A stretch of 64,000 bases of DNA from Tubulanus polymorphus (Eukaryota > Nemertea > Palaeonemertea > Tubulaniformes > Tubulanidae): assembly GCF_964204645.1 (NCBI RefSeq), contig NC_134026.1, positions 5,084,001-5,148,000 on the forward strand. The letters run 5' to 3'. Below are positions 4,501 through 61,700 of the stretch, in pieces. The position numbers and the translations under genes were made by a program. Position 1 is the first letter of the stretch. Each line of letters begins with the position of its first letter. The notes beneath the pieces were generated by a model. It was not told the origin of the DNA. It searched no databases and saw only the letters and a list, made by a program, of their open reading frames with translations.

Positions 4501-5634
4501 AAAGGAGAATCAATCAATGATCAGCGACCTATACTCCAGAGTTGATTGGCTCAGATTATGGCATATTTTCTTATTGCAATTCATTAAGATAATGACCCAT
4601 CCCGCTCCACCTACCCAGAAATCTGGAGAATTTATCATAGTCCCAAAAATCTGAGGCAAAAGCAGAACTTCTCTACTGTATTTACATTTCATCAAAATGT
4701 CAAAAATAGATTTTCTCAAGATTTAGAACTTAATTCACTATCCTCTAGAATTCAAGCCATAAACCTGGCCCTGTTTTTAGCATAATAATACTTACCTAAA
4801 GTATGCGCTATAAAGTTGTTGATCGAACACATCAGCCACACCCATGGCATAATAGGTGGATAATAAGGAACAGCATCGGTAGATGCGTAGAAATGCAGAT
4901 CAAAGTACGTCAGTACGAAGTAATTCAAGATAATAAGTAGAAAGCCGGAAAACGTCATCAGATTCGGAGCAACCCATTTCGGCACAATCTAAAATAATGA
5001 AAAACAGAAGATTCGATTTATTGCTGGGAAACGAAAAGAAGGTTCTCTTACGATGAAAATTCATTGAAATGAGCACCACGCAGCTTTAGACATTTGACTT
5101 ACTTTTATGCACTGATTCCAAAATGGATGAGAAATGTACGTGCTCAATGGGCTGTTATCAACAGACCAATACTGAAAAATAAAACAAGAATACAGTTGAA
5201 AGCAGCAATAACGGGTTTCTGGCATTGATTATGCGAGATTTTCTGACTTAAGTTGACGATTCAGGATTTCAACGGCAGCCACTTCACTGCAATCTTTAAG
5301 CTTAACTACTTGAGCAATCCCAAGAGAAGAGAAAGATTTTGGAAAGTCCAAAAGTATAGGTGTGTAAGTAAAGTTTATTCGGTTATTCGGACCCTACTAC
5401 GCATCTGCCACCTGCGGGATTTTTACAGAACTAAAAAACATTCGATTCAGATTTCATTCTATTTATCTCGTACTCAGTGCTTGTTGATAACACATTTTCA
5501 TAAACAGAGCCACTTTCATGCAAATCTTTCTTGCTTGATTTCATCAGTTATAATTCAAAAAACCTACAATCAATCACCTTATACTTATCAAAACCTTTCG
5601 ATATCTCCGGCGTAATGTATTCCATAATCGCCAT
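1550..5634 (-). CDS. EPT1: Ethanolaminephosphotransferase 1 (selenoprotein I homologue, no Sec)
   Basis: Transfers phosphoethanolamine from CDP-ethanolamine to diacylglycerol in the Golgi/ER membrane, the last step of the Kennedy pathway to phosphatidylethanolamine. Coding exons, 5' to 3': 5634-5578, 5171-5103, 4988-4796, 4461-4199, 3797-3686, 3571-3523, 2698-2518, 2089-1820, 1675-1550. All have GT..AG borders and matching phases, giving 439 aa (human protein 397). The N-terminus ([19 protein letters not shown]) aligns with the family start. The CDP-alcohol phosphotransferase signature DGxxARx8GxxxDxxxD runs from D110 to D132. Several hydrophobic membrane segments follow. The C-terminus reads FSLEKPN, as in vertebrates, but continues PYGPHF to a TAA, where vertebrates have a selenocysteine codon within SDULG. 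I see no in-frame TGA in the assembled coding exons. The assignment is secure; the last 30 residues diverge. Confidence 0.93.
2764..3036 (+). mobile_element. piggyBac-like MITE, copy A
   Basis: A 273-bp element inside an EPT1 intron. It starts TTAACCCTTTCAGTGCTG and ends GCACTGAAAGGGTAA, so the ends are inverted and framed by TTAA or a near-TTAA. Six further relatives occur in the window. The TTAA frame and CCCTTT terminus are those of piggyBac-superfamily elements; no transposase is present. Confidence 0.75.
3117..3520. mobile_element. Foldback element interrupted by a second MITE
   Basis: The left arm (about 3117-3238) contains ATAAAAACCCACTATGTACA. The right arm (3401-3520) carries its inverted copy (TTGTACATAGTGGGCT). 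The same family lies at 63088-63458. Between the arms sits a separate insert that has no counterpart in the 63-kb copy. Confidence 0.7.
3239..3400. mobile_element. Nested MITE with GGGGTCATTCATTTATTACG ends
   Basis: About 160 bp with inverted ends: GGATCATTCATTTATTACGT on the left and ACGTAATAAATGAATGACCC on the right. It splits the foldback element around it, so it inserted later. The interior has pyrimidine runs (CCCCCCTCCCTC). Confidence 0.7.
3925..4065 (+). repeat. Dispersed repeat shared with 12.1 kb
   Basis: Contains AATGAGACGAGTAGTA, then TTTATTTGA..GAGCT, and GCTTCATCAGGTGAAT. The same blocks appear in the same order at about 12130-12240. It lies in the EPT1 intron between exons 4199 and 3797. 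Confidence 0.6.
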
Positions 5635-6553
5635 TTTTTTAACTGGTTAGTATTCGATCGTATGCAACGGCGTATGTAATTCGTTATCCGGGATTCGAAC
5701 CTGGAACGTCGTTCGGGACACGAGCTCGCGAAATTCTGTTGCTCGAATTGAAAGAAATGCTTCAAATAGTTGTACTCACCGGACTCATATAAATCGGTTA
5801 GACACTGAAAAGTGGTAACTTTCTGGAAATATTAGAATAAATCTGACGACCGTGTACATATCAATAAACAAATTCTGAATCTGTCTCGTCATTCGGCGGT
5901 TTTCGATAGTACATGTAATTTCGTTTATACGGCAACTGTAATTTCCTTGCATCGACTGTTTTTAGCGGGCATGATCGGAGACGAAAGACACCGGAGTTGG
6001 AGACGATTTCAAAGGAACCGGCAAACTTTTTTCATAGTGGGTGATTTACTGACTCGTCGAGCATGGTCAGAGTCCCGATTAGACGATTTGGCCCGAGTCA
6101 AGCTTGTTCAAATTTGGTCCAGTGCCTAAGAGAGCGCACTGTTCACACGTAAATCACTCACTTGTTTCTAAATGCTATCAAAACGATGCAGCGAAATGCA
6201 AGAGGAGTCATTTCGAGCACATCGGTATTCACACATCAGTCGTAGGGCCAAATTTTTTCCCAAGATATATGGTAAGGCATTCTCTTGTCCTCTTATATCG
6301 TCAATCAAGTTTGGATAGATAGATAATTTTGCTTGATTGAAAATCAAATTTGATGTTGATTGATGAAAACTATTCGACCAATTTGGATTTTTACAATTTA
6401 GCGGGGTTCGGTGCAGACGTCACATAGATACTTGGATACGCGGTCGTCAAGGAAAACCATAGGGCACCATAGCAACAAATGTCATAGCAAAATCACATTT
6501 CGTGAAAGCGGTCATAATTTTACGATGCTGTGTGATATGATTTATTTTGCACG
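5635..6553. other. Divergent intergenic region between EPT1 and the membrane protein gene
   Basis: About 920 bp separate the two start codons, which point away from each other, so both promoters and 5'UTRs must lie here. No TATA box or other clear element could be picked out. About 240 bp of it (6030-6260) is a dispersed repeat. The minus strand near 5690 has a tRNA B-box-like GGTTCGAATCCC without a matching A box. Confidence 0.5.
6030..6260 (-). repeat. Dispersed GGCACGGGCC-type repeat, copy 1
   Basis: Reverse-oriented member of a family also seen at 41700, 42355, 48395, 50390, 54390 and 61060. Recognisable blocks are GACGATTTGGCCCGAGTCAA, then AGTGCCTAAGAGAGCGC and GTTCACACGTAAATCACTCA. 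They correspond in reverse to the copy at 54.4-54.7 kb. No coding capacity. Confidence 0.65.
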
Positions 6554-8045
6554 ATGTTTTCTTTGAGATTATTCTCAATTTGTTGCTTTATTCTCTTGGC
6601 TACTCCGGGGGGAGTCGATGGAGATGAAAACTTCCTAGATTACTCGTGAGTATGAACCAGGCACATCGAATACTGTTTTAGATTTAAATGAGTGGAGGCT
6701 CATGATATCAAACAAAATATCCGATCGTATGCTCCTTTTGGTAATGATCGGTGCCACGTCGTTATGCAATGTTATATTCATGATGAACCGTCTGTTAAAC
6801 TTTTTCCAGTATCTTGAACTGTGTATTCGGGTACGTGGCAGAAATCTTTTCGATTTTCTACCGATATAATGGAGATGAAATAGTCGCTGAGAAATACTAC
6901 CAGAAGTAAGTAAGAATAAAAGAAAAGTATCCTTATTTTCAGGTTGATGCTCGGTTACCTGGACTGACATTTTAGTATTTTCTTTTCCAGTGTATGTTAT
7001 TTAGATGTGTGCGCTTTGACTCAAAATGACACTTTCTACGCCGATAGGGACTCGGACAAAACGCAGCAGAATAATGTGCATGTTCTGAACGAAAATAACA
7101 AAATTTGCTACTCGGACGTGTGCGCGTTAGTGAAAAATGACACTTATTACGCGGATAACTTCTTTGATTCGACTATATTTGATGGCGCACTTATCGATGA
7201 AGATCTCAAAATTTCAACGATTCTTTTTGAGAATTTGAGCTGCTTTAAATTATTATTGGTGGAACTGGTCTTATTGCTGAGTGTGGCTCTTCTTGGTCTT
7301 CTGTCAAAATTAATGAGATTCTTATTAAATGGTAAGGACTTTTGCGCTGCCTAAAGATCTTTCTGCGGTAAAATCACTTCATTGGAGCCCATACCTTATT
7401 GATATTCACTCATTTAATTTATCCAATAGCTCTGGTTGGAAAATATAGCGCAACTGCTGGTGAAGTCGCCGCTGCCAATTCCTCGATTGATGAGAACGAA
7501 AATGAGAAAGAAGAAGCCGACAAAAACGTCCAAGATCGCGACAAATTACCACTATCTATTTCCATCGCGCCAGAACTAGAAGACTTTCGTCTGATCGTCA
7601 GTGAATCCCGGGTCAAAGCTTTCATGGAAAACGAAAATATCTCCAAAGAATCGAAACAAATGGCGCTAAAATTACAGTTCCAGTTGGCCAAAGTTACAAA
7701 GGTAACTGAATATCCAATATCAAATCTGGGTGTTAGTGAGCTTTTTCTCAGATTTCAATCCAAAGCTTATAAGCAATAGAAGTGTTCATTGTTCGAATAA
7801 TCATTTTGCAATTCACTATCTTGCAGTGTTGGGTTCACATGAGACTAATGCGTGAGTTGGCGGTGAAAACTTACACCAGGCCATGGTTCAAAAGGTAAAA
7901 TCTAATTTTTCAAAAATTCAAAAATTTGTTTTGAAAATCCATTAGATATCGGTGTATTTTCATTTCTTCCAGGGAAATGTTAAAGAACCAGCAGCGATTC
8001 TTTCTACCTGCAGAAGATCACACACCATCATCACCTGTTAATTAA
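6554..8045 (+). CDS. Unrecognised type I membrane protein with duplicated Cys/Asp motif
   Basis: Exons 6554-6645, 6810-6905, 6991-7331, 7430-7701, 7827-7894 and 7973-8045 join in phase to 313 codons plus stop. The first exon encodes a hydrophobic signal peptide (residues 1-20, MFSLRLFSICCFILLATPGG). Two similar 17-residue units, CYLDVCALTQNDTFYAD (65-81) and CYSDVCALVKNDTYYAD (102-118), lie in the predicted lumenal part. A single Leu-rich membrane segment covers about 150-172. The tail is acidic around 188-210 (NENEKEEADKN) and then basic (CWVHMRLMRELAVKTYTRPW). I do not recognise the family and assign no function. The gene structure is convincing: six consistent splice pairs, signal peptide, and AATAAA 25 nt after the stop. 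Confidence 0.8.
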
Positions 8046-29037: not shown

Positions 29038-31112
29038 TCATGAAAAATCAGTAAATGAACACAAGATTATTCCATTGTTATCGTAAAACTCAAACATATC
29101 GTCACTACGCAAAATACGCATTTCATGTTCCCTTTCTACGGACATTGCAAACGTATCTGGACCATCTCCGCAGCCAGCATCGCTTGATATGGCGGGATAC
29201 CCTGGATGAACCATCAATTCACAAGTGACTTGATTTTTATCACAACTCGCAAAGTTTTTAGTGGCCATCGACACAATATCATTCAGTTTTTTCTGAAGTC
29301 GTCCAACTGTCATGCAACTACCCAATGTCATCAATCCAGTGAAGTATTCTGCATGCCTAAAAATCAATGAGGACAAAAATAAGTATTTTCTTAAACATTT
29401 TTCTGAAAAGTAAGCTCTTTTAAGCACTTTGAACCCTATGATAAATAAAAGACCCATAATCACAATTCGATCATTAGTAAAAATGTACCTAAGCTTGAAC
29501 TGATTGAAGATTTTACGACTAGCAGCAGCATTTTCGATACAAGCTTCGTTGAAAGCTAAACAAGACGGCGATACGAACCAATCACAATCGTGCAATCCAA
29601 TTTCATACGGTAATCTTGTGTAGTTGACTCCGTAACTAGTAACTGCTTCAGCGAAAACCTGATTGACACCTGAAAATACAAACCAGTAAATAATACAGCT
29701 TCATTCTAGTATGACTACAGAAGCCCATATACCTGGTTCAGTACTCGGAATTCGTCAGATCTGTCCAAAAATTAAAATATTTTCTAACTCAACACATCAT
29801 GGATCATCAGCAGGATCTGAACCTGAAGGCACCAAGATGAACGGTACAGTCAAGTTGATTTGTTCATAAAATCAACACTTTTGGAGTAATAGAATATATC
29901 AATGATATCCATCTTTTTGGTACCAGCACTTTTTCAAGAAAGATATTTTAGTAAACCTTGCCTTACTTTGTCACGACCAACTCAGTCTTTTGACCACCTT
30001 GAACAACGAAGTCATTTTTCTGTATCTTCCGATCCTTAATTCCAACTTCGCTTACCTCGGACCAATTTTTTTGGTCCCAGTTTGTCCGTGTTTGGCAAGG
30101 TTTAATACATAGTAAGTGAAGTTATATATGATTACACTTAAAATTTCAATGTACAATTTGCATACCTGGTAGAATATGTACATGTTGATGGCCGTCCACA
30201 TGGACTGGACATACTCCAGTCAGTTTGATAAATAATTCGATTTGAGCAACCATTTCACGTTTCAAATCTGGCATATTTATCGATCCCGACTCTAGTAGTG
30301 TTATGAATGACATTTTATCATGAAAGCTTCCCGTGTCATCAGTAAGGCTAGTTTGAAGGGTCGCTGGACAAATCGGCTTTCCTTCTGTTACATTCATATG
30401 CAATCCTGTTAATAAAATCATATCGAGTGAATAAATATTGGGGGTGGGTGGATCTACTGTTGTTCATTGTAGAAAATCTAAATTTAGCAGTGCTTTCACG
30501 GAGGAAAAACAGTTTAAGACAATGATATCATTTTGGCATTTGAGATTTTGGGGGAGCAAGCCTCAGTGGGAATCAAAAGCGTATCATGAAAATTTTGTTG
30601 AGACTAAAATTATTGGGGAGAGGCATATATGCCCCACCCTTGCCCGGCTGATGCCGCCCCTGGTAGTTTACCTAATTCAATAATACATGTATTTATTTTT
30701 CCATAAGGATTATCAAAATATCGATATAATGCGTCCACAATAACTAGTGGGTTTGAGCACTCTTTTTCAATTGAAAGGCAGGAGGAATACAATCGAAAGA
30801 GAAATGTTGTTGCCCCAAGATTCTACCTCAAGTTCCATATGAATGCTGGACTGAGGAAACCGGAAATTCAAAGACATTGCACCTTACATTAGAACACACT
30901 TAAACATGTCCAGAACAATACATACCAAGTGGCAAATTGTATTTCTTAGCTTGAGCAACTGCAGATTCAGCAGCTTGACCGTTGACAAGTAATGATGCAC
31001 TCGTAATCGACTTCTTATGCAGAAAACAATCAATGATCCCACGATTTCGTTCATCACAATATCCAAAATCATCTGCGTTTATCACAAATTTCATGAATTC
31101 CTTCGAAGCCAT
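29038..31112 (-). CDS. YDJC: YdjC-like carbohydrate deacetylase
   Basis: A metal-dependent deacetylase of the YdjC/NodB-like fold, thought to remove acetyl groups from N-acetylated sugars or chito-oligosaccharides; the animal substrate is not settled. Coding exons 31112-30926, 30405-30166, 29669-29489 and 29356-29038 join to 308 aa (human 323). The expected metal/catalytic residues are present: NADDFGY (D14, D15), GLHMN (H65) and VDGHQHVHILPG (D133, H135, H137). An AG acceptor ends one base before the ATG (exon edge 31113), so at least one exon lies upstream. See the 92-codon ORF at 31817-32095. Confidence 0.93.
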
Positions 31113-37785: not shown

Positions 37786-38057
37786 TTAACCCTTTCAGCG
37801 CTGACTTATTAATACCCTATACTGCTGGAGATAATTTCAACATTTTGAATAATTCCACCCTAGTGTGTTGAACAACTGTAATACACCGCAGCGCGGTGTA
37901 TCGTAAGTTACTAGTATTTCACTATGTTTGACAGGTGCTGCCATCTTTCAAGAGAGATAATTACTAATTATATCAATACACCGCAGTGCGGTGTACTAGC
38001 AAAATCCATCACCGATTTATACCCCGCACTGCGGTGTAGACGCACTGAAAGAGTTAA
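37786..38057 (+). mobile_element. piggyBac-like MITE, copy C
   Basis: 272 bp framed by TTAA on both sides: it starts TTAACCCTTTCAGCGCTGAC and ends GCACTGAAAGAGTTAA. It contains three copies of a 17-nt palindrome of the form ACACCGCAGTGCGGTGT. It has the opposite orientation to copy D, 760 bp away. Confidence 0.85.
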
Positions 38058-38818
38058 CGCCTCACGACAATTCAAGCCCGGTACTTATATATAGAAGGTA
38101 TTTTCCTTTTTGTGCTGTCAGTGTCGTATATCCGCTGCACTGAACTCCTGACCTGAATTCTCATCGGTTTTACGATGCTATTTGGCACGAATGGTTTTGT
38201 TCTCTCGTAAAATCAAACTTCAGTATATGTGGGGGGGTCATAATGTTGGGGCGCTCATTTGCGACTTTATTGGCGGCTATTAATGTTACTAATTGTTGAC
38301 CGTTCTCTCAGTATTTTCAAATATGAATTTACCGATGGCGCAGCGTTTATGAAAGTCGTTTTCGGGGACCGCACGCGTCGTGTCTAGACGTCGACGAGGT
38401 TGACGTTATACGCTGTGCGGCGGCGGCGAGGACAGCGAGAGATAATAAATCATTTCAGAATTATTTGTGCCACCAGTCGGAGAAAATAAGACGTCACTGG
38501 TAATAAATTCGGAGCCGTTATTATCCGTCGACGTCCGTCCACGTCGCGTGAAATGCACGAATAAAGGATGGATCGAAATTTATGTTACATATATAAAGCA
38601 ATTTCACCTGCCATTAACTATTATATGCACCTATAAAATGTCTGTACGTTATTATTATTATTATTGCTGCTGTTGCGGTATTTAATTGCTGCTCTTTATT
38701 GCTCTCTGATCACTGTCATCGTGAGTACCTCGATTAAACGATGGAACTTTGACTGAAAATCTCGATTCGAGGGAGAAAGATGAAACTGATATATGAATTT
38801 TAGTCCAATCAAAACTGC

Positions 38819-39119
38819 TTAACCCTTTCAGTGTGTCTACACCGCGGTGCCGTGTATTAATCAGTGATGGATTTTTGCTAGTACACCGCACTGCGGTGTA
38901 TTGATGTAGTTAGTAATTAGTAATTATCTCTCTTGAAAGATGGCAGTACATGTCAAACATAGTGAAATGTCAGTAACTAACGATACACCGCGCTGCGGTG
39001 TAGACACACTAGTGGTATTCCCGTTGTTCAACATACTAGGGTGGAATTATTCGAAATTTTCAAATTATCTCCAGCACGATAGGGTATTAATTAGGCCTAG
39101 TCAGCACTGAAAGGGTTAA
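38819..39119 (-). mobile_element. piggyBac-like MITE, copy D
   Basis: 301 bp from TTAACCCTTTCAGTGTG to CAGCACTGAAAGGGTTAA, intact TTAA on both sides. It contains TACACCGCACTGCGGTGTA and ACACCGCGCTGCGGTGTA. Inverted relative to copy C. Confidence 0.85.
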
Positions 39120-39454
39120 TTGATTATCATGTCATTGACAGGCCTGTAGTATGAGCATTATGCGGTCAGGTTCGTTTTTCATTTGGTTGGAACTCTCTAA
39201 GTGTTTGAGAATTTGATGCTCGAATACGAGCGATTTCTGTTGATATTTAGGTTAAAGCAAAATGAACAATTTTGATCTACATGTCTAATGTTGTAATAGT
39301 TTCTGGAATATTTTTTTTTGAACTGTGAAAAAGTGAGTGGAACTAAAATCTATGCGTCGGAACAAATCTAACCGAAAGACAGCAGGTCTAAGAGTTCTGG
39401 AATGAAGAAAGGTTTGAACACGATTTCATGATAAGAAACTGATTGTCGTTTCAG

Positions 39455-39743
39455 ATGAAGACGACGATGAGGATGATGTACCCGATGCGACGACGATCGT
39501 GAAGCAGTTATTACGATGTATTAGTCGTGATGTATTTCGAATCTAGCCGCTAGTCACTTGCATGAGGTTTTACTAGTCGTAAACACACGCACTACACGGC
39601 ACACACTAAAGAGCAGCTTGTGTATGAGCATTGAACAGTTCCGCTGAACTGCGATATTACAGCGTACCCTGTGTGCGAACGAGGCAGACTTAGATTTTTT
39701 CGGTCGTCTGACTTTCGAGGACATTAATACGACTAGAACCGCA
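39455..39743 (+). other. RPH3A: Probable 5' leader of rabphilin exon 1a with upstream ORF
   Basis: The acceptor GTCGTTTCAG ends at 39454. The exon would run from 39455 to the donor at 39793. A 15-codon upstream ORF starts at its first base (ATG 39455, stop TGA 39500-39502) and contains four further in-frame ATGs. Another frame (39457-39546) is open and very acidic (DEDDDEDDVPDA), ending TAG. Confidence 0.4.
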
Positions 39744-39793
39744 ATGGATCAGTGGACGTGTCCGGATGACCGACAATTGTCGCTCAGAGCCAA
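39744..39793 (+). CDS. RPH3A: Rabphilin alternative first coding exon 1a
   Basis: Encodes MDQWTCPDDRQLSLRA plus two bases of a Lys codon, then GTAAGT. The phase-2 donor fits the exon at 46268, giving ..LRAKLGTGWSV. It is a shorter relative of exon 1b ([20 protein letters not shown]), which lies 1 kb downstream with the same phase. The two carry separate start codons, so they are mutually exclusive starts. Confidence 0.75.
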
Positions 39794-40325
39794 GTAAGTT
39801 AATAATTCGTACTTTCATGTGTATTCATAATATTTTTGTAGTACCATATTTCGAGTTTAGTTAACTTTATTCATTCGATACAGTATGTCTGCCTAAACGG
39901 TTGTTAGTCCTAGTATCAATAGGAATTGAGGGTATTAACTTGGAAAGTAGTTTTGTATTAGTTTTTCTCTTGTTACTGGTGAACTATTTAGACATATACC
40001 GGTGGTATATGCTTTATTTTCATTGCTGTTGACATTTTATTTTCCGTTTAGACCCCCAGACAATATACATTAAGGTCAAGCCTAATTTGAACCTAATTCT
40101 AGCTAGCTGCAGATATATTTATAAATAGATATCATGACTATCCTGGATTAATTTCAAATTTTTATCTACATTCCAAAAACAATTTCACTGTTGTAATACT
40201 ATATGACATTTTGTTTAGATTTTTCAAGCTTTGCCAATTAGAGCATGTCTTGCTAGCGATGCCACTTTCAAGCAATTTCCGTTATTTCTATTACATAATA
40301 ATGCACATATTTTGTTAGAATTATT

Positions 40326-40597
40326 TAGCAGAGCTGCCAACTGTTACTGATTTTCGGTATTCGTTACTATTTAATAGTGAGAAATACTGATTTGATTTGA
40401 TGCATACTGAAGTATGAAAGATGTTAATGAGGGTCTTACTGTTGATTACTGATTAATTTTTACCAAAATATGAAATATATTGAGGGTATAATTGTTGATT
40501 GCTGATGAATTTGAACATTTTCATTCATATTTCAATGAAATTTTCCTGAAAAAAATTAATTTGTTACTGATAGCACTTTTCAGAGGTTGGCAGCCCT
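40326..40597. mobile_element. Element with CAGAGCTGCCAAC ends
   Basis: The left end CAGAGCTGCCAACTGTTACTG is mirrored by GAGGTTGGCAGCCCTG at the right. It lies between rabphilin exons 1a and 1b. A related, shorter element follows exon 1b. Confidence 0.6.
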
Positions 40598-40754
40598 GTA
40601 TTTTCAAAATCGATCAATTCGTGTGAGTTGAGTTTCATATTTTGTTTTGGTTTCTGTTAACGTTTTGTTGGTTTAATTGCAGATAAATTTTCTTGTTTAC
40701 GCACACGCGCGCACACGTCTTACGGTAGATCGTTTTCTGTGTTCAGTTTGCACG

Positions 40755-43700
40755 ATGGGAGATTTCGCAGTGTCGTCGAACACGGAATCGTGGGTTTGCC
40801 CAAACGACCGACATTTGCAACTTCGAGCCAAGTAAGAAACACCACGACATTGTGTGACCCCTCCCGTTCGTTCGTACCCCTTCCCCCAATGAAAATCTCG
40901 TGTAAATCCGGCAAAGAATTAGTCGTTGATTAGCTAAGGGCTGTTCAGAGGATTGATGGCCTCGTGAAAATGTTTTTGTCTGATGATCTGAGAATTTAGT
41001 ATTCTTTTTGTTTGATGCATTTCTTCTTTGAAGAACTATTCAATTAGAGGCAGACAATTGCACTCCAGAACGTAGGTATAGGTATTGCGGCCCAGTTGCA
41101 GCCAATATCGAAAGAGATGACCTCCACCTGGCTGCAAACTCTTGGTATTCATTATTCATTGATATCGCCCCTATATAGAGCATTTTAAGCAACAGAATGC
41201 TGATCACATTAGTTTCAATTTCCTCGAGGACCTGTTGGCAGCCCCTCCCCCAGAGCTACCAACTGTTTATGGTTTTCAGTATTTTGTCCCCGAAAATATT
41301 GATGTGACTTGTTTGATCTGACGGAAAAATCCGACTTGTTACTGATAGCACTTTGCAGAGGTTTATCAGCCCTGTTCGAAGGTGGTTTGTTGTTCGACAT
41401 GGCCCGTTAGACATAAGGCTCTCAATCGATCATTAATATGCCCGTCATGTCGCGATGTCCGACAGAGTTACACATGAAAATTGAATCAATAGAGACTGAC
41501 GATCTGCATGATAATTGCGGCTTAGATGAACATACTGTTAGGGTTAGCTTTGATTATCACACTACCGTATTGATTGTGTTAATTTAATCACCCTCACAGT
41601 CTACTGGTCAGTCACAACACAGCATGTTGACAGCTATAAGAAATATGCAGCAATAAGAGCTATAGATAATTTGAAAATATGAAATTGTTCTGCCAAATTT
41701 TAGCACTGGTCAAATCATTGTGTCTGGAGTTTGTTTAGTATCGAGTGAGTGGCTTATATCTGACTCAGGCCTGATCGGGGCCAATTTGGCCCGGGCTAAA
41801 TCATCTCCGTGTGATCGTGGCTAATGACCGGGCTTATCGCATTAATCTAATGATAAATAATAAGTTTAGTCCTGTTAGCTCTTTTTGGATCTTAACCTTG
41901 ACCGTCAATTCGCAGTGATGGAGTTGTTAGTCTAACCACCATGAACTGCGCCATAAATACGGCTAGTTCTACGGCGGCTGTGATTGCTGCCATGATTTAT
42001 GAATTCGATGATCCAGTTTCATCGATTCGCGATTGTATTGTTAGTTGATCGCTGCTGGGGGAGGGCTATTAACACGAATACCCCTCCGACAACGACGCCG
42101 CTGTCATCGGCATCATCGCTTTATTGATTCAGATCAATCTTACGAGCGTTATTACCGATCTTTACATTGATTACATAATACAGTACCGTCCACGACTTCG
42201 CTTACTGATGCCGCACACATATGCCCGTATTTGCTGCATTGCTACATTGTTCACCGATAAACTCTGCCTGGTCGAAAAATTCCCCTGATCAGACGCAATT
42301 GCTTTTCTTCGAGGAGGCATCTTTAAAGATAAAGTACCATACCTTGCCCTAGTTGCCCTGTAGGCCCTAGTTAACCGTTCACATGAGTGCCGATACCAAA
42401 TGGGTCTCAGTGCCTGTTTGGCCCAACCAAACATGTCTGACCAGGCCCGAGCTGGCTCAAATTATTGGGCATGAATGCTATCTCATTCTTCAAGTGACTT
42501 TCATTATTTTCTCAATGCATTGTATGGTATCGAGTGAGTGGTTTACATGTTAACGGGCTTTCTAATTAGGCACGGGCCGAATTTGGCTCAAGTTTGATGC
42601 GGGCCAAATTGTCTTCGTTTAGTCACGGGTCCTTAATGCGAAAATCTTGAGAACGATTACACATGTCTTGTACATTACACCAAAGTTAGAGAAAAGTTGC
42701 TGAATAATTGCTGCCAATTATCAACAGAAAATGCTGGCTTCATTGCGGTGTAACTTCTTTTTTCATTATCGCAAGATCCTCAGCACTATTGACCCGGCAT
42801 ATGAAATTAATCAATCCTTTACTCCGACATTTTCTTCCTGTGCATCAACCTCGATTGATCTTTGCTATGTTCTCGTGATTAACTTCGGATGAAAATATCT
42901 CCGTAAGCGGCTTATTCGACAGCTGAAACAATCCGAGAAATTACCGCGACGCCTCGAGCTGTTGTGGCCCTTGCTTTTAATTGCGGTATGGATAATTCTT
43001 GCGCATCGTTTTGTACAACTGATCGAATTTACGAATAGATCATTCGAATTGTCCTTGGAATACGAAAAATTGTCATCAAAGCGGCAATACCTTGCATTTT
43101 TTGCTTTTTATCGTAAACCGGTTGGCCAGAGACACGGAAAACCTGGAAAACTTGAGGAATCAGAAAAAATCTAGAAGAAAATAAGGGTTAATTCTTGGAA
43201 TTTGAGAAATTTTACCAAAAACCTGGAAAAATCTAGGAATTCGGATAATGTTATTGATTGACCACGTGTTTCGTTATCAGTACGCAATTCCTGAAAAATG
43301 AATGAATTCTAACATTTTAAACCTTTGCTATAACATGCTTGTCTGGTACATGTATCGTATAAAATGTAATCTCTCCGTTTCAAAGAGTGTCACATAGATT
43401 TTGATAAAGTACTCAGTATCGCGCCGGCGTACTGACGATTAAAGGTATTAACGGAGTATAAACCGTTGTAGCGTTAGTTCTCATGACAGTAGCTTGTATT
43501 TAATGTGTTGCTCGGTATTGAGAACGAGTCATGCAGATGTTATGCTACACAGTTTTATCTCTCCCGGTATGACATGATTTCAATCAGGGTGTGGTGCCGG
43601 TGAAAGTGATTTTTTCACCGCTGCTGTCGTAGTCATGTATTCACTACCAATCCGTTTCCATTCGAATTCCATTCGCATGATTATCATATTCTTTTCGCTG

Positions 43701-46700
43701 ATTGATTTCACTGGGCTCCAGAATTGTGGTTTTCGTTTTTCCCGATTCCTGACCCATTCTCACAGAGAACCATTAGAATGAAAGCGTCTAATATTGAATT
43801 GTCATCGGAACTGTCAAAACATCGGCGAAAATGTAGCGTCAAATACTTAATGTATTTAATCTTATGTTCACGATCATAACGAAGATTAACTTTCGCCGAA
43901 GAATATTTTCGTGACGTGAACAACCGGTGATGTGGTTCTCGCTCAACTTTACGCAGTTCGGCTGTCAATCGTGTTGTTAGTGCTGATTTTGAAAAGGGTT
44001 GCCTAGCAACAAATAAAACGCGGCAAAATACTTCCCCCCCCCAATTAAGTACAATAACTCACCTTCTAACCCCTGTTGTAGCGCACTGGACCCAATTCCA
44101 CAGTTCCTCGTTAGAAACTGCAACCTTGAGATAGAATTTGTTCATTTTCAATTATTCATCTGTTTAAGTAAGACAAACTGTGGAACTGGATGATTACATC
44201 GAAGTGCTCTACAATAAAAACAGTTCCTCAATTTGAGTCTTGAGTCTTAGTTGATTAAAAACAAATTGATAACTATAGGTTGCCTCACCTCCGCATTGGC
44301 TTTACCCCTTCAGTGCTGACTAATTAATACCTGAAAGTGCTGGAGTTCATTTGAAAATTTTTGAAGATTCTACCCCAGTATGTTTAATGCGTTGACATGC
44401 ATCGTTAGTTACTAATATCAAACTATGTAATCAGAACTAATTGCTTTAATACAATCAATACACCTCGATGCGGTGTACTAGCTAAGCTCCATCACTGATT
44501 TATAAACCGCTCTGAAAGGTTTAAGGGTCAAATTCTAACCTATAACTGATGTCTTGATTGACTTAAAACTCCAAATCATAAACAATTAGACCATTCAATA
44601 TAATGACATTCGAATCTGAAGTTCACAAAACCTCACACCACAATACAGCTGCTATTTTTGAAAGTGTTTCCCCGTTGGTGGCTATTTCGCATAATGTTCA
44701 TTCATGTCTACCTTTAGGTCACACACACAGCATCATCGGAAACCAAGACTGATTTATATCTAAAAATTGCGTATTATCAGCGGTCTTTATTTTCGTCTCA
44801 GACCTCCGGCGCTGTATATATGTATTATATTTATAAAAATGTGTTGCTCTATTCAACAATGCGTGAACATAGAGAGCGCGATAAAAGATGCCGAATATCT
44901 ATTCTCATGCACGGAAATGCAATGGATTTTTTTCCAAGAAAATTCGAGCCGAAATTGTCGGACAGATTTATACGTCGACGCAGGTTATTGGTTCGTTATT
45001 ATGATGTATACGCCGTTACTTAGAGACATTCGTCGGGTATTTCATGTCGTTCTCGAAACACTTCATGATCTTCGATGAGGAAATATACGACGTATTGCTT
45101 CGCTGCTTGATATTTCAACCGGAGCGCCGTGTTGTGTATTGTCCATAAGAAAAAAATCCCGCGCTCTCGCCTTGCGTTGATATTTCACTATACTATCGAC
45201 GATGATATTAATATTCCATACACTCGGCATCTTGAGCCGCGATATTGCGAAATCTGTGTCTTATATCGGGTATAAATCTTGTTCTATCGGCGCGGGCCTG
45301 TTTATGTGTTTCGACTGCTTGTCATCGTACTGACGTTTGTTTTTAGCGGCAATCAATGCGGGTACAAGATCTTACTAATTTTTAGGCTACGCTAAAAGAA
45401 TGTGTCCATTTTTGTAAAGGTGAAAGAACTAGGGAAAACGTCATTCGTCGTAGGCTTTTGGCGTGTGTACGAAATTCGGACCGAAGTCGAGATCTCTGCC
45501 GGAGTAGCAGAAAGGCTGATACAAGAATAGTTATACAGGGGTGTAGTGAAGAGGATTCACATGGACTCCCCCGGAGTAACGCTATTTTTGGGCCCCAATT
45601 TATTCTTTAAGAATTTAAGGACGCTGGCATTTTGAACCCTCAGGATTGTCATCTCCTTCGCTGTGCCACTTTCTCAAAAATGAAACCCTGTGCATAAGTT
45701 TCTGACTATGCCCCGTGTGTTGGCCCAGACTTTGGCATTTTCTTGGTATATACACGTATGTATAAGCATTATTGTTGGAATGCCAGAAACTCCATGCAAA
45801 TACCTCAATGATCAATATGTGAAATGAAACGCTCTGTGCGTCTCCAGGCTTAGACGCCTCGAACGCTATTTTACGAATAATTCAGCTGCTCAAATCAAAA
45901 TCTTCAAATTGAACAATACGTCGGAACCGAACGACGTTAACCCCCCCCCCCCTGAGAAAGATTTAATCATCGCGTATAAATCGATACAATTCGACTGTGT
46001 TTTAAGGAATGACTGAAGTTTCGATCCTGACTTAATTAAAAATCGCGTAGCGTGATTTGAATAGAAATCTACGGGTTCATAAATCTTACTTCGGTAATGA
46101 AATACGCATGGAACGGGCACTTTATATCGGCCGTCTGAATAGTGAGCAATATTTGGGGAGGTTGAATGCTTTGTAATTCATAGATGTAATTACATTTTGT
46201 ATATATATATATATATGTATATAGATTCTCATGAAATTTGTAATATCTTTTTTCTAATAACTTACAGACTGGGGACCGGTTGGTCGGTGCACACGAATAA
46301 GATGACTACGTTCAAGAAACAAGACCAACTGAGCTGCGATGAACAGGAACAGATAATGCGAGTGATACAGAGAGCGGAAATGTTGGAGCAGATTGAACAA
46401 GAACGAATAGGGTGAGAGTTTCCCGTCCGCGCAGATTGTGTCTGAATTTATGAGTTTCTACGTGATTATAGATCGTCGTATAGATTGATAGACCAGAGCT
46501 CGTTCATCCTGTTCGCGATGAAGACGAAAGGGTAATCATGAGCTAGTACGTGAACACCTCCAGGGGCCAGTTGCATAGTCATGGCTTAGACTTAAGACCA
46601 GTCTAAGACCATCTTCGTTCTGTAGCCAATCTAACAACTTAAGACCAGTCTTAAAACCTAAGACCATTTTTGGACTTAAGTCTCAACTGAGGAACCGGCC

Positions 46701-49700
46701 CCAGGTCTGTACGCAGCCTCTCTTTTTGTTGGGCGCGAATTTAGACAAAGCGGAACTTATTTGATATAACGAATGAGGTTGTCCCCGATTTTTGCGATGC
46801 TTTCATCATTCATATTGCCCTAACCCGAAAATACTACCGGTTTGTAGAAAGATCTGGTAGATTCGTTTGTCCCGAAGAAAGAATTTTTGATGAAACCTAT
46901 TATATCACAAAGTCTTTGAAATAGGTTTCTTTTTTGTCTTTTGATCGTCGGAAATTATTTGTTGAACAATTTCCGTTGCTACGTAGCAATCAAAGTGCGC
47001 TATTGCGGGGAAGGTGTCCCTTGGGTCGGAATATTCATGCGTAACTGTAATGCTGCTTAGATGATGATTCGGTGTGACGTGTTTAAGCTTCTTTTTCTTC
47101 TGCTTCTCTGTGAAGAGTAAACTTTGTGAAAAATTGCTGCGAAGTGGACGAGTCCCTCGGGCTCGCACCAAGTCACCCGGGACTGCGCTCGTTTCGAATG
47201 ATACCGATGAAGTTGGACGTACCACGCTTTGACTGCTATAGGTTGAGGATACTTTCAGAAAATGTTATTATATTGATAGACGTCTCTTGAAACGATACTA
47301 ATCAAGTCAGTAAAGCTTTGGTTAGAATTTTCTGTCGCAGCTTCTAAAAAGCAGTTCTTATCTGCATTATAGATCTGCTCGCGTCTGGAGCCATTTTTTC
47401 GAAGAAATAAACGATTGTGTAGTCGAACATGTAGCCAAATATATCGGTTCTATGTAGCAGTAGAGTCTTTTTTTAGGAACGACGACTGAAAATATCTCTG
47501 CCTTGCATTAGGATTATTGGTTGATGACTTACAAGTATCTTTTCGTTGAAAGAAGTGTTTTTGCCTAAAGACATCAATAACAGCTTATATACCGTCAGCA
47601 GCACTTGCTGTCGCTTTGATGTTGCTAAATGCTATCTATCTAATGCACTTCGAAAGTAAGGTTTAGATTTATCCAGTGATAGCTATAAAACATGTGAATG
47701 TCCAGGGGTGGATCCAGGCTAGAAGTGAGGAGCTTCACCTCATTTGAACACGGCACGAAAAGGGCACATTTAATCGTAGCGGGTGACCCGGCGAATGTCG
47801 CAGGTGCAAAGTGCTTGCAGGGGTCCGCCCTCGCCCCGAGAATTTGGAAAAATCAGATGTATTTTTTCTGCAATTTTAGTGCATATTAGATCATGAACAG
47901 TACATGGGATAAGAAGTGGATTTTCAAAAGGGCGCTCGGTCAGAAAGGGGGGCGATTTGAACCCCCTGAACCCTACCCTCTGGATCCGCCACTGATTTTT
48001 GAATTACCAGAAATCTCACAGGTATCTTTTAAAATATAGTCATATGCCTATACCGGAAATCTTACAGATGACCCTCTATTCTTATGAAAATACCATATAA
48101 CCTTACTATTATAACTAGAACTCGACCTAAAGCTTTCGACAATGCTCTTTAGCCCGATGCATGTCTGTGACCGGAATACCTCAACAAGTAAGCATGTCTT
48201 AGAATTTACCTAGTGAAAATATCAAACATGTTAGATATCAACACACTAGGTGAATTGCTGGCGTATTTCACATCGTGCACTTGTCAATAGTGTTCAAATT
48301 CCTAGTCTACCAGACAATCTTCGCTAGAATAAATCTGAATTTTGTCAGATGTTCTTGCAACTAGTTTGTGGATAGTAGTTCGAGATACCAAAATACCCAT
48401 GGGTACACCAAAGTGGGTTTGACCATTCCGAATTTGAGAGCAGGCTCAGATGCAAACCACTCACTTGATACTAAAAAAATCGAAGTGAGTCACTTCAGGA
48501 ACCAGTTGCAATTCACACGCGATAATTCGCGACACAAGTTACAATTTGGCTTGGGCACGGGTCCATTTGGCACCAGTGTGAACAGTTGTTCCGACCAAAA
48601 TTTGGCCTGGTTGTGTGAACATAAGTATAGTAAAGGAATACAGATCTACTGAAATGTAAATTGAAATCAATTGTGAGACTCTTTGATCTTCATTTTCTAT
48701 TCTTGTTCTGGTTATCGATCGTATCTTAAATGATATCACGCCCACATTTTGAATCCATCATCATTGTCGCTGTTCTACCAACAAAGAAATCGGACATGAA
48801 AATCGTATCAATCTTCTTCGTTTAATGACAGCTCCGCGTTTATTGATGGTGATCTTTTTTTATGTAGAGTCTAAATTTACGTTGACTTGTCGTTAGTCGC
48901 CGCACCGAAATGTCAGGCGATCATGTCGTCGCGGTAACAGTGTAATAGTGTCCATATGTCATGTATAGTTCACCCCGTCAAGGGCGGATCTGATTTGTTG
49001 GAGGGGGTCAACATAGAAATTGGAATGGGCACTTTAATTTGAAAGGGGCAGATTACGAAATGCGAGGGACGCAAGGGTGAAATATTGTTGGGGTTTCTAG
49101 TCATTTTCCCGCAGACAATTTATAGGACAAAAAGGGGCTTTTCCAGTCCTAGGCCTAATTTGGATTAATTTTTCGTCTTTCTAAAGTTTTCTGTGTAAAA
49201 AACGACCCTTTGGAGGGCACATTGGAATTTTGATGGGGATGGACCAGTCCACGCCCCAGTCCACCCTCATAAATGCGCCCATATCAAACATGAACGAATC
49301 CAAGTCCCGACTTAGTCTGCATGGATTGAACTTCTGTTATAGAAGTTAATGAAGTTCGGTAAATACAACGACACCCTAAGCGCGAATGAAACCCCCACCC
49401 CCAACCCCACAATCTCTTTCACTCAGGCACATGCCGTCAGAACAGCAACGATGTAACTGGCCATTAATTTTCTTTTTTATCGTTACTGTGCGCATAAAGG
49501 CCAGCAATCATAGGACTGCAAATATTTAGCTAGGGCTGTATATGCGATGTTAGATTATCGAGGGATTTTCATTGATCACATTTTCTAGTCACGTTTGAAT
49601 ACTGACTCAGTTAATTGGATCCGTCTGGATAGCACCGGGCCAGACGAACTCTATTTAGACGGGCCTTATATAACTCATAACTAATTATATCAGAAGAAGT

Positions 49701-55700: not shown

Positions 55701-58700
55701 ATACTAGACTGATAGTTTAGGGGGGTTCTGCGTGTATGAATGACAAATTCACCCCCCTCCCCCCCCCCCTATTTGCGGATGAAGACCATGAAGGCCTATG
55801 AAGCCAAAAGAAAAAAGAAACTGAGCATCGCTATAGTAGAATTCACTTATTGGTGACACTTTTACATTAGTTCTAGATTCGAGGCCAAATTGCAGCAAAA
55901 CTGTCTTTACTCTAAAAACAGATTGAACCCCCTACAAACATGGCTGGCTACGGGCATGTCGTGGTAAAATTCAGCGGAACTGTTAAAGATGTCGTGCAAG
56001 TAGCTAATCGCGGTTTGTTTGCGGCAAAATAATTGCGACACAAATTATTCATTAGACAAACGTTGCTACTTCGATTGGGTTTACTGCCGATGAAATTTAA
56101 TGCTTCTTGTCATCACATGATTTGATGTAGTGACAATTAATGTTTATGCTTACACTTGCTGCTCGTGTGGTATAATGAGTGTGAAGCAGGGAGATATATC
56201 AGTTCTCCCGTCAAAATTGCTTACTTCTCTAATCATACACAACAACGCTCTTCTTCAACTTGAAGGTCTAGGTCATTCAAAAGTCACTCCCTTAAAAGGT
56301 CGATGATCCTCGTTGAGTTTGTAGGATACAGTAATAGATATGGGAAACACAAATGCGGAATCAAATTATGTTGATGCAGTAAAAACCATAGAAACCATTT
56401 CAATAATGTTTATATACATTGATACATAGTATGCGTTGTTTAAGGGGTTCTGTGTGAGCTTATGTGCAGTATTTCATCAATTTGGCGTTTCAAAATAACA
56501 CCATTTCTTGCGATGAATAAATTTACCGCGATCGCTGCAATCAATTCGCTCGCTTCTGTATTATTTCACGCAACTCGCGGTCGGTCGTTATTGTTTTAAC
56601 GCTCGGAGTAGTTTTTTTTTTATGCGTCATCCATCAATGTTTTCCATGTGTAAATTTTCGTTCAATATTACCGCTACAAGTGTCATACATCAGGTCGTCT
56701 TTTGACAAATAGAATTTTATTGCCGTTGATTACGCATAAGGCAGCAGCGGCACTGACTGTCATCCATGTTTTCCAGTGCGAAGCCGCCTTACCCCAGGAG
56801 TTTCCTTAGAACGTGGGCTATAATCGAAAGTTTCAAGCCAATCAACGAAACTGGAAAAGTGTGTAAAAACCTCATAAGTTCACAAGCTCCACGATAGTAC
56901 TTATAATTCATTCAGAAGCTATTTATTGAGTTGGACTAGAAGAAACTCGACAATTTTGGTTACTTTGGCCTTTTTAATGGAATGGTAATCTGTGTAATGG
57001 ATTTTGTCTCGACAAACGGAAACATGTGATTTATCACTGAGTTGGTAGTAAATGTTCTCATTGGTCAACGTCGTTAGTTTTTTTCTAAAAAAAACGACTT
57101 CAATTTCGTCGATGAGAGACGTCGTCGACGCTCTTTCCTGCGAGTCACGAATCTTGTCTTTTTAGCGGATGATGAGCGGTATATATTTCCCCAGACTGGA
57201 GAACGCGCGCTAGACCTCGTATCGAGTCTGATTGATTGATTTTGCTTAATCTCCCTCGATTCCAGTCGCTGCCAGAAGTAGACTACAAATATATCCCATC
57301 GGATGATGGATGATTCGGGAATCCACTTGAAGCTATGATATTTAGTATACCCGTCGGGGATTAGACCTTGCTTTACCCCCGGTAACCTTAGCCAGACGAG
57401 TCGCATCCTCCCTTGAGAGCCGTCATTGACCAAAACATTGCTCTTCATCCCTTCTCGTCATTGACTTTTGACATTCAGTCGCCTTGTAATGACTTTACAG
57501 ATCTCCTCAAGGGATTTTTTGACGGCTGTTAAAACTTTTACAGTAAAGTTTATACACATTGATTCCTAGTATGCGTTATATAAGAGGTTATGTGTGAGTC
57601 GATGTACACTACATCATCAATATTGCGATTTCTCTAATTTCATGACTCTAATTTTATTTTTATGAATTTCAATAATTATTTTTGAGAGGATGTGCACTAT
57701 GTCATCAATATATTGGGCTAGACTGGTTGCCTGTCAACACAATTCAATTGTTGATTTATTGATATTCCAAATAACTATTGATCCTCGGTATTATATGATT
57801 TATTTATTGTCGGCAATCTTAAGCTATATATTTGTTATCTTTAAAGGGGTCAATAAACTTTCAAGTCAGTTTTCTTGTTTTATTTTGCCGTTTAAGGAAG
57901 AGTAAGTTAAAAAAGATATTCATATGATTCATTTTCCTGTTATCTTTAAGGCGATCTATTCTATTTTTAGGCACCTGGTTGAGAAATTAGATAATATGAA
58001 AAAGAATGCTATGGGTAATGGCTCGACACAGTGTATTCTATGCGGAGATGAATTTGGGCTTCTCGGCGCATCGCCCACTTATTGCGATGATTGCAAAAAG
58101 GTAGGTAAATCTTAAACCTTGATCAGATCATTATTCATATTGCTTAACCCTACCGTAAAGAAAGCCTTTATTTCCGATGTATGTGCTAGTTCCAACAGTA
58201 TTGTATTTTCTCATAGACTCGCCAGATTTTTCGCTCACAGTAAGGCCTGCCCTCTAAGTACTTCATCATGAGTAAGGAATTGGTGTTTTCCTAGAAAATA
58301 GGGATGACGCCTTGATAGGGCCCCAGTTGTTTGAAAAACCAAGGTTGGGCAGGAAAGGCTGTTCAAAAATTGAAAAATAGACATGTTAGAAAATGATAAA
58401 GAGTATTCACAGTTTTCGATGCCAATTATTGCTCAGTCCAGTTCGCATCCCAACTGGCAAAGTGGTAATTAATTTCATATTTTACTTTGATTCAATATAA
58501 ACAACACTGATGTTGTCAGTTTGTGATCATGATACTGAAATTAAGCAAGGATTAACTAACTCTATGTCTATCCAACTTTCTGACGTAGCTGAGGATGATT
58601 TTCGTTTATATTTTGATCATATACTTGCAGGCTGTTTGTACGAAATGTGGAGTAGATACGTATAATAGCCAACATCAACCACTGTGGCTGTGTAAAATAT

Positions 58701-61700
58701 GTAGTGAAAATAGAGAGGTGAGTGAATATTAAAACAACACATTACTTAAAACGCCTAAAGCCTCGACACGATTGTCGCGTGTGTCACAAGTGGCCGCGCA
58801 AGTCGGTTGCGATGCGGTTGTCAGCAACTGTGCGACTAGTTACTGCCAGTCACAACAGCACGCAGGTCGGCTGCGACGGTGGCTCGCGTCGCAGAAAGTA
58901 GAACATGTGCGACTCATTGGCAGTCGCAACCCGTCGCTGGCAGTCGCAACCCGTCGCTGGCAGTCGCAAGGTAGCGTAGGTCGGTTGGTCATTGCGACGC
59001 GATCGTCGCTGGCGGTCGCAGTGAGTCGCGAGCCATCGCAAGGCTGACCTACGCCCGCCTTAACGTACATCGACAAAGTAACTGTAGTAGCCAGAGACGA
59101 ACTGGCTGGATAAACCAGTGGCTCGAATATTCCGATGAGCTTGATACCAATCTATCTCCAGTTCCGGCCAGTTGCTCATTCAGTTGTAAGTCCGATGTAC
59201 GCTTTGGTTGAAACGTGCTTTTATAGAGAACAGTATTGATGAACCGTAACCATTTCTACGGTGAAGTTGTCACCGAGTTACCTGTAAATGATTTTAGCCG
59301 CGATCGCAAGAGCAATTTCGGCCCGTGCCAAATTAGACTCGGAACTACTGTTAATACCATACGACTATGGAAGCAGTCGCACTCAACTGGACTGAACTGT
59401 GCTATATTTTCGATCCAAGCTTTAACGTCCACTGTCAATTACGTAAACTCCTATTACTGTCATTAGATACTTCTTTGTACGCGGTAAACTTTTCCTTCCG
59501 TATTGAGCATCGGTTTTCTGGTGAAATCAAAACCATCCGTACCGCAATAAGTGCCTTCGAGGTTCCCATTGAATCAAAGAAAAATCGTGCGATTGTACTT
59601 ATATTAATGATGACGTAACTGTGGGTTATTTTTGTAGCCGAACCGTGGTTTCTACGCTTGGCAGCGATTAGTTTGAACGTGCGTCGCGAAAAGGTCGGCT
59701 GGATGCAAAAAGTGGAAATGCTTTTAACGTCTTTTTCTCCGGTTACCGGGAGACATACGGGAATCGTTGATGTAAATGTCCTGACATTATCTCTATGACA
59801 ACTGTGAAGTTTCGCTGTCGTCAGGTTGAACCTAGAATACGTCATCTGTCGGGTGTATGAACCTTTGAAGTGGTCTGCACTAGGACATTAAAGACAAACA
59901 TTGGTCACGATCAGCTTCAACCGAAAAACTAACCGGTTTGGCCAAGAATATATAGATTTCCATATATGGTTTCAACAACGCATTGTTTCACTGCTATAAT
60001 TAGGCAACATAAATTCAAATAATTTTTGCGAAAAAACCATAAGCAGAAGAGAAACCTACAAGCTATGGGAAGTTGTTGGTGCATTTCACTTTGGGAGTAC
60101 CTCTAATATTGCCTGTTCAGACATCGCAGTGTCCTTTCGGGATGTGACAAGTCCTTTCGAAATCGGCCTCTGGATCCGCCCCTAAACCGGTTTAGGGTTA
60201 TCCGGTAATCATTCTTGCCATGTTTCAGGTTTGGAAGCGATCGGGAGCCTGGTTCTTTAAAGGTATACCGAAATACACCATACCGTCGAAACGAGTCGAC
60301 GGCGGAAAATACGGCAATTCAAGAGGTCGTCTAACAGAAAACAAACCGGGAGCTCGAACAAATCGACCGAGCTCTAGTCGCACTTACCAGACGTGGAGTA
60401 AAGCCAGAAATAAATGTAAGTATCGAACACTTCGGCATAAAATGGTGCTTACAATCGCGTATGAATTGATGATTGACGAAAGAATTGGAGAGTCCTGAAA
60501 TGTTAAGGTTGAGGCATTTTAGGTTAAGAGTTATAAGTTAAGTTAGCTTCGATGTTGGATTACAAATCACGTCATCAACTTGATATAGAGCATTGAAATC
60601 CATACATTAATCTCTACATATGTTATAAAGGCCATTAACATATGGGAATTATTGAAGCACGTCTGGAGACAGACATCAGATGATAGATACCCGATATGCG
60701 ATGCGTGGGCGCTGGCTGATAGCCGATCATTTCAATAAATACCGCACGATATAGCGTGAGACGCACGATATAGCGTGAGACGTTGTTGATGAAAAATCCA
60801 TTAGTCGAAACGAATTCGTGAAACGGTCAAGTTCACTGTGCCATCAACGTGCGTACAATTCCATTTTAATTACGTGGTGAACTCCCCTAAAATATATATC
60901 TATATAGAAATAATTTACATGAAAGCCCTGCGTATACCTAGGGACCGATGAAGCAGTTTAATATGCATCAATTCATGTTAAAAATTCAGACTTTTAGTGT
61001 TTGACACAAATAACGTATTGAATAATCCATATAAATACAGTACTTAGATATCCATTGTCGATTGAGTCAAACTGGCAAAGCATTTTCGGCCTGGGCCAAA
61101 TGCCAAATGGGTTTGTGCCTGTTTGACCCGGCCCAAATTAGGGCAGACCAAAAATGTTTTACCAGGCCCATGCCAAATTTTAGCACTGGTCAAATCATTG
61201 CATGTGATCTGCAACTGGTACCGCAAGTGACTCACTTCGCTTTAAGCATTGCTTAGTATGAGTGAGCGGTTAACGTTTAACTTTAATTAGGCGTGGCCAA
61301 ATTTGACTCTTGTCTCTGATCCAGGCCAGACCTCGAGATATCTTCAGAATTGCATGATATGGACAGTAAGCTTTCCAGTCACGCTGACATCCTAGTGACT
61401 TACGTTCGGCAATTAATCAAATCTATCTTAGCATGTAGAAAATCAGTTGGCTATCATTCAAAGCTTGAAAGGGTGTGGTCTATTATAGATCATTACGCGT
61501 TAATGCACATATACGCTAAGTGTATAATTTAAGACCTCATGATAACCGATGATTTGCTATTCGATTTTATCAAATTATTAGGGCGATTTCGAAGTACACC
61601 TCGCCAGATCGTTATTATACACATGGCTGATTAATAATAGGTAGTTAAAACCGTCGTATTTGCAAAAAGAAATCAAATTCATTTAAAGATTTGTTCGGTA

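Follow-up and report, generated by a model that had tools for sequence, protein, structure and literature searches.

Two putative alternative first coding exons, apparently old tandem copies, in the rabphilin gene of the nemertean Tubulanus polymorphus

Alternative first exons that arise by duplication are a known kind of gene structure. Duplicated tandem first exons of which one is used at a time have been described for UGT1A and for hydra of Drosophila (PMC9013439). As in the locus described here, the duplicated first exons of UGT1A lead onto common exons, and in that gene one is used per transcript. UGT1A, however, has thirteen first exons, each with its own promoter, which encode the substrate-binding site, whereas two short exons are present in the rabphilin gene considered here (PMC9013439). 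In another known pair of alternative exons a TM segment is encoded by only one of the two, which are consequently not near-copies, unlike exons 1a and 1b of this report.

Within the rabphilin family, alternative N-terminal exons have been reported for Caenorhabditis (Craxton 2010, PMC2823689). The gene family and the place of the alternative exons, the N-terminus, are the same in both cases. The main text of that article is silent on whether the Caenorhabditis exons are copies of each other, whereas 1a and 1b are copies; its rabphilin section mentions alternative N-terminal exons for Caenorhabditis only, from a collection that included Capitella, Helobdella and Lottia. Among the matches listed in a literature search, none was seen to describe a duplicated first exon for rabphilin, and the word isoform is absent from the excerpts of rabphilin papers PMC8612575, PMC11483123 and PMC7522021.

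Invertebrates are stated to have a single rabphilin gene (PMC2823689). Noc2 (RPH3AL) is the counterpart of the N-terminal portion of rabphilin and is described as a fission product of ancestral Rph3a (PMC2823689, PMC10511049). Unlike rabphilin, Noc2 has no C2 domains.

Gene identity and exon structure

A stretch of 64,000 nucleotides of Tubulanus polymorphus (assembly GCF_964204645.1, contig NC_134026.1, positions 5,084,001 to 5,148,000), referred to below as the window, was analysed. Positions are counted from its first base except where a contig or locus is named. The original prediction had placed here a rabphilin gene with two duplicated, mutually exclusive first coding exons.

The product of the joined exons 1b-2-3-4 (Table 1) matched chain B of PDB entry 1zbd (rabphilin-3A) with an E-value of 6e-38 over residues 41-146, with weaker matches to Slp2 (7.7e-5) and melanophilin (5.6e-4). 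The same product matched Pfam FYVE_2 (PF02318) over residues 46-146 with an E-value of 3.5e-27 (95.4 bits, cut-off 27.2). Matches to C2 domains were found on the strand of the gene at contig C2:5156832-5156912 (E 0.0019) and 5157562-5157744 (E 9e-12). These C2 exons lie approximately 9 and 10 kb beyond the end of the window and are tied to the gene by position; when pieces of them were joined, these matched best the C2 domains of DOC2B (5e-42) and then those of rabphilin-3A (8e-38). The DOC2 genes are thought to be derived from a rabphilin gene (PMC2823689). A protein search of the 268-Mb genome pointed to one locus, all four of the four matches at E-values up to 10 lying in this gene. Seven PF02318 matches were present in the genome at E-values up to 0.1, five of them outside this gene (contigs C1, C2 and C6). 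Taken together, the 1zbd chain B and FYVE_2 matches, the tandem C2 domains downstream and the single locus bear out the earlier naming of the gene as rabphilin.

Several features of the surroundings were recorded. A FYVE_2-type Rab-binding domain with two PF02318 matches over the cut-off is located at C1:4596910-4600520. On the strand of the gene and 3' of the C2 exons, reading frames at positions 5352-7130 of locus L002 resemble syntaxin-18 by eye. When neighbouring reading frames were compared with Pfam (10 of the 33 frames of at least 100 residues), one match exceeded the cut-off and three fell below it. The former is a frame of 220 residues on the minus strand (29038-29700) which matches YdjC (E 1.3e-9, 38.7 bits, cut-off 29.7). 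The intron after exon 2 contains, at 46560-46720, repeated cttaagaccagtcttaa-like words which by eye are probably a dispersed repeat. The intron after exon 4 contains a CpG-rich stretch (58741-59140) of repeated GTCGCTGGCAGTCGCAACC-like units, with CpG counts among the highest of the window.

Table 1. Exons, duplicated segments and candidate acceptor sites at the 5' end of the rabphilin gene
Feature	Position	Strand	Remarks
Coding exon 1a	39744..39793	+	MDQWTCPDDRQLSLRA + 2 bases; G at -3, G at +4; donor GTAAGT at 39794
Coding exon 1b	40755..40831	+	25 residues + 2 bases; A at -3, G at +4; donor GTAAGA at 40832
Shared exon 2	46268..46411	+	Rab-binding helix begins here
Shared exon 3	57971..58100	+	helix and first part of zinc finger
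Shared exon 4	58631..58717	+	second part of zinc finger
Duplicated segment, copy in 1a	39752..39798	+	direct repeat D2; from base before Trp codon into donor
Duplicated segment, copy in 1b	40790..40836	+	direct repeat D2; 72% identical to 1a copy
Candidate acceptor AG	40681..40682	+	would open exon at 40683, 72 bases before 1b ATG; 97th percentile
Candidate acceptor AG	40745..40746	+	would open exon at 40747, 8 bases before 1b ATG; 93rd percentile

As had been proposed, two ATG exons of the same phase are present which both fit the exon at 46268, and their frames read through to exon 4. Both exons end in GCCAA/GTAAG (the stroke marking the splice site), with the last codon split 2+1. Joining either of them to 46268 completes an AAA (lysine) codon across the splice, after which the frame is open through exons 2, 3 and 4. 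Among the 3719 GT dinucleotides of the window, the donors of 1a and 1b rank at the 99.7th and 98.8th percentile, respectively, based on a generic splice-site matrix which was not trained on this genome. Going upstream in frame, the first stop codon is met at 39645 from exon 1a and at 40674 from exon 1b, and neither interval up to the start contains another ATG in that frame; the nearest upstream ATGs in other frames are at 39624 and 40535, respectively.

Exon 1a encodes three residues ahead of the Trp and exon 1b encodes 12, in agreement with the difference of nine residues in the original prediction. Counting the lysine formed by splicing, the Rab3/Rab27-binding helix is preceded by a tail of 17 residues in the 1a form and of 26 in the 1b form. 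The tail encoded by exon 1 precedes the Pfam domain and the matched part of the crystallised chain, since the matches to these begin at residues 46 and 41, respectively. Helix and zinc finger are carried by the shared exons 2-4 and, as had also been claimed, the segment before the helix is the only one predicted to change with the choice between 1a and 1b.

The two exons are separated by 961 bases, and part of this spacer (40324-40616) is a multi-copy repeat. At least 132 matches to it were found in the genome, that in the window itself counted. At a number of places, successive matches overlap with an offset of about 112 bases, a pattern expected of an internal tandem array. On the 3' side of exon 1b, at 41251-41363, two portions of the repeat are found again with 85% identity (direct repeats D1 and D3); this exon is thus flanked by copies of the repeat on either side.

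Homology of the two exons and constraint on their peptides

A repeat finder detected a direct repeat of 47 bases with 72% identity, which begins one base ahead of the Trp codon and ends within the donor. When the window was scanned in six frames with the 13-residue peptides of both exons as queries, the sites of 1a and 1b scored 78 and 75, whereas no other site scored above 25. A degenerate motif which included the donor, searched with up to three mismatches, gave exactly two matches in the window compared with none in each of 100 shuffled sequences. The prediction of a tandem exon duplication is thus upheld by the repeat, by the scan scores and by the motif counts. Neither the six-frame peptide scan nor the degenerate motif revealed a third copy of the exon in the window, and no tandem repeats were found within 38000-47000. 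No other copies of exon 1a or 1b were found in the genome by a DNA search in which 40 of 868 candidates were scored. An origin as exons borne by a repeat was rejected, since the spacer between 1a and 1b was the only part that matched elsewhere in the genome in that search. When the degenerate exon pattern was applied to viral_contigs, five pattern matches were obtained and none of the five was confirmed.

The flanks of the two exons showed no likeness beyond that of shuffled sequences. The score of the alignment was reached by 104 of 300 shuffles for the upstream 500 bases, by 38 of 300 for the upstream 200 bases, by 186 of 300 for the 60 bases preceding the Trp and by 264 of 300 for the downstream 300 bases. 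A duplicated promoter or intron is untraceable, because neither the upstream nor the downstream flanks have similarity beyond shuffles.

The shared peptide reads W-x-C-P-x-D-R-x-L-x-L-R-A, with nine of 13 residues identical. At the four positions that differ, Thr, Asp, Gln and Ser in 1a correspond to Val, Asn, His and Gln in 1b. A similar motif, Trp-x-Cys-Pro-Asn-Asp-Arg, is present in the N-terminus of Noc2. In the 39 bases that run from the Trp codon through the Ala codon there are 13 differences, four of them at first, two at second and seven at third codon positions; these differences change four of the 13 residues, and four of the nine common residues are specified by different codons.

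Based on a null model in which 13 changes were placed at random (20,000 trials; the ranges reflect variation of the start sequence and the transition rate), 5.1-5.5 identical residues would be expected on average, versus the nine observed. Nine or more identical residues were obtained in 0.19-0.69% of the 20,000 trials (P 0.002-0.007) and a BLOSUM score as high as the observed one in at most 0.06%, and a stop codon arose in 42-59%. The excess of changes at third positions (7 of 13, compared with 6 of 26 at first and second positions) was marginal with a Fisher P of 0.06, as is expected when only 13 codons are compared. The NG86 method gave a dN of 0.24 and an undefined synonymous distance (returned as -1 and taken as saturation); YN00 yielded no value. 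The similarity of the two peptides thus exceeds what random changes in the DNA would be expected to preserve, which points to an old tandem duplication with both copies kept coding. From the sequence, it looks as if neither copy has drifted freely and both have been retained as coding sequence, and the duplication would be old, its age being drawn from one short stretch.

Choice of the start and competing explanations

With moderate confidence, we favour the explanation that the first exon of rabphilin was duplicated in tandem long ago, that the gene has retained the two copies as coding exons, and that the choice between them is most likely made by the start of transcription. Each copy, with its own ATG and donor, would be spliced to 46268, resulting in two rabphilins which differ in their tails only. 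In transcripts initiated at 1a, exon 1b would be removed along with the intron, and transcripts initiated between 1a and 1b would carry 1b only. We infer separate starts and use of both exons, and likewise any functional difference of the tails.

The sequence ahead of the two exons was examined for acceptor-like sites, ranked with the generic matrix among the 3310 AGs of the window. No AG above the 80th percentile was found before 1a in 39300-39744, the best of the 15 AGs in the last 200 bases being at the 78th. For comparison, the acceptors inferred for exons 2, 3 and 4 rank at the 98th, 90th and 97th percentile, respectively. The simplest reading of 1a is therefore that of a true first exon. 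Given the two acceptor-like AGs ahead of 1b (Table 1), 1b may be a first exon, or it may be spliced to a preceding 5' exon that is noncoding. The AG at 40745 does not decide between a start and splicing, since the same place also reads TCAGTT, which is initiator-like (a loose match at 40743).

No TATA box was identified on the plus strand in 39301-40900, where three loose matches to the initiator were present; these core promoter motifs were uninformative. The ratio of observed to expected CpG is 1.25 around 1a, 1.63 around 1b and 0.38 between them. This pattern counts weakly for two starts, because the spacer is partly repeat, the mean of the window is 1.0 (sd 0.47) and the intron at 41000-45800 has a ratio of 1.1; a 200-base window over 1a is at the 72nd percentile for CpG.

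Whatever the mechanism at the RNA level, the two tails are expected to be exclusive at the level of the protein, because an mRNA which contained both exons could not give full-length rabphilin from the 1a start. Joined to 40683, exon 1a would give the product MDQWTCPDDRQLSLRAK followed by a stop, and joined to 40747 a frame-shifted product of 55 residues. Mutually exclusive use of 1a and 1b in the mature transcripts, as originally predicted, may be the case, the loss of frame bearing on it indirectly.

The main competitor is a single promoter with the choice made by splicing, which we regard as possible and clearly less probable. Exon 1b would then be spliced in at 40683 or 40747 as the second exon of transcripts with a more distant upstream start, and 1a would be used when its donor is joined directly to 46268; if both exons were retained, the frame of 1a would end early and turn into a short upstream ORF preceding the 1b start. 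The AGs before 1b, at the 97th and 93rd percentile, fall within the range of the inferred acceptors of this gene (90th-98th), and when 9115 windows of 73 bases were examined, 2.2% contained a comparable pair. Between 36000 and 1b, three donors exceed the 98th percentile, at 39333, 39794 (that of 1a itself) and 40623; the last of these would give introns of just 60 or 124 bases. A single AG equal to the better candidate is found in 9.9% of the 73-base windows, so an acceptor-like AG before 1b may be due to chance, and the percentiles come from a generic acceptor matrix with no training on this genome. The AG 8 bases ahead of the 1b ATG would also suit a trans-spliced leader, joined at 40683 or 40747 ahead of 1b, if this organism uses spliced leaders; we consider this very improbable.

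It is unlikely that either exon is a relic that has dropped out of transcription or splicing. Across so short a stretch a decayed copy can remain open for some time, but both copies retain an ATG in good context, an open frame, a donor and much of the peptide, whereas under random change a stop arose in 42-59% of the trials, and about five of the 13 residues would remain. An artefact of assembly or haplotype, in which two alleles were placed in tandem, is the least probable reading by far and carries almost no weight with us: the repeat has diverged by 28% over its 47 bases, the flanks are unalike, and the protein search places the gene at one locus (4/4 matches, E up to 10). Assembly duplication was rejected on account of the unrelated flanks and the 28% divergence of the repeat.

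Implications of the two tails

As a gene structure, the duplicated first exon favoured here is a further example of an established type. A bolder idea, which we regard as improbable, is that it acts as a switch for a second Rab, such that the 1a and 1b forms would couple secretory granules to different Rabs. The idea derives from Noc2, in which Rab2a is bound by the region preceding the Rab3/27-binding domain (PMC10511049), and assumes that the tail of rabphilin does likewise. If it were true, the single rabphilin of an invertebrate would cover by choice of exon the roles that are divided in vertebrates between rabphilin and Noc2. That one gene has two similar yet different tails suggests that the motif W-x-C-P-x-D-R-x-L-x-L-R-A is important in its own right, and the pair of 1a and 1b offers a direct way to ask what the tail of rabphilin binds.
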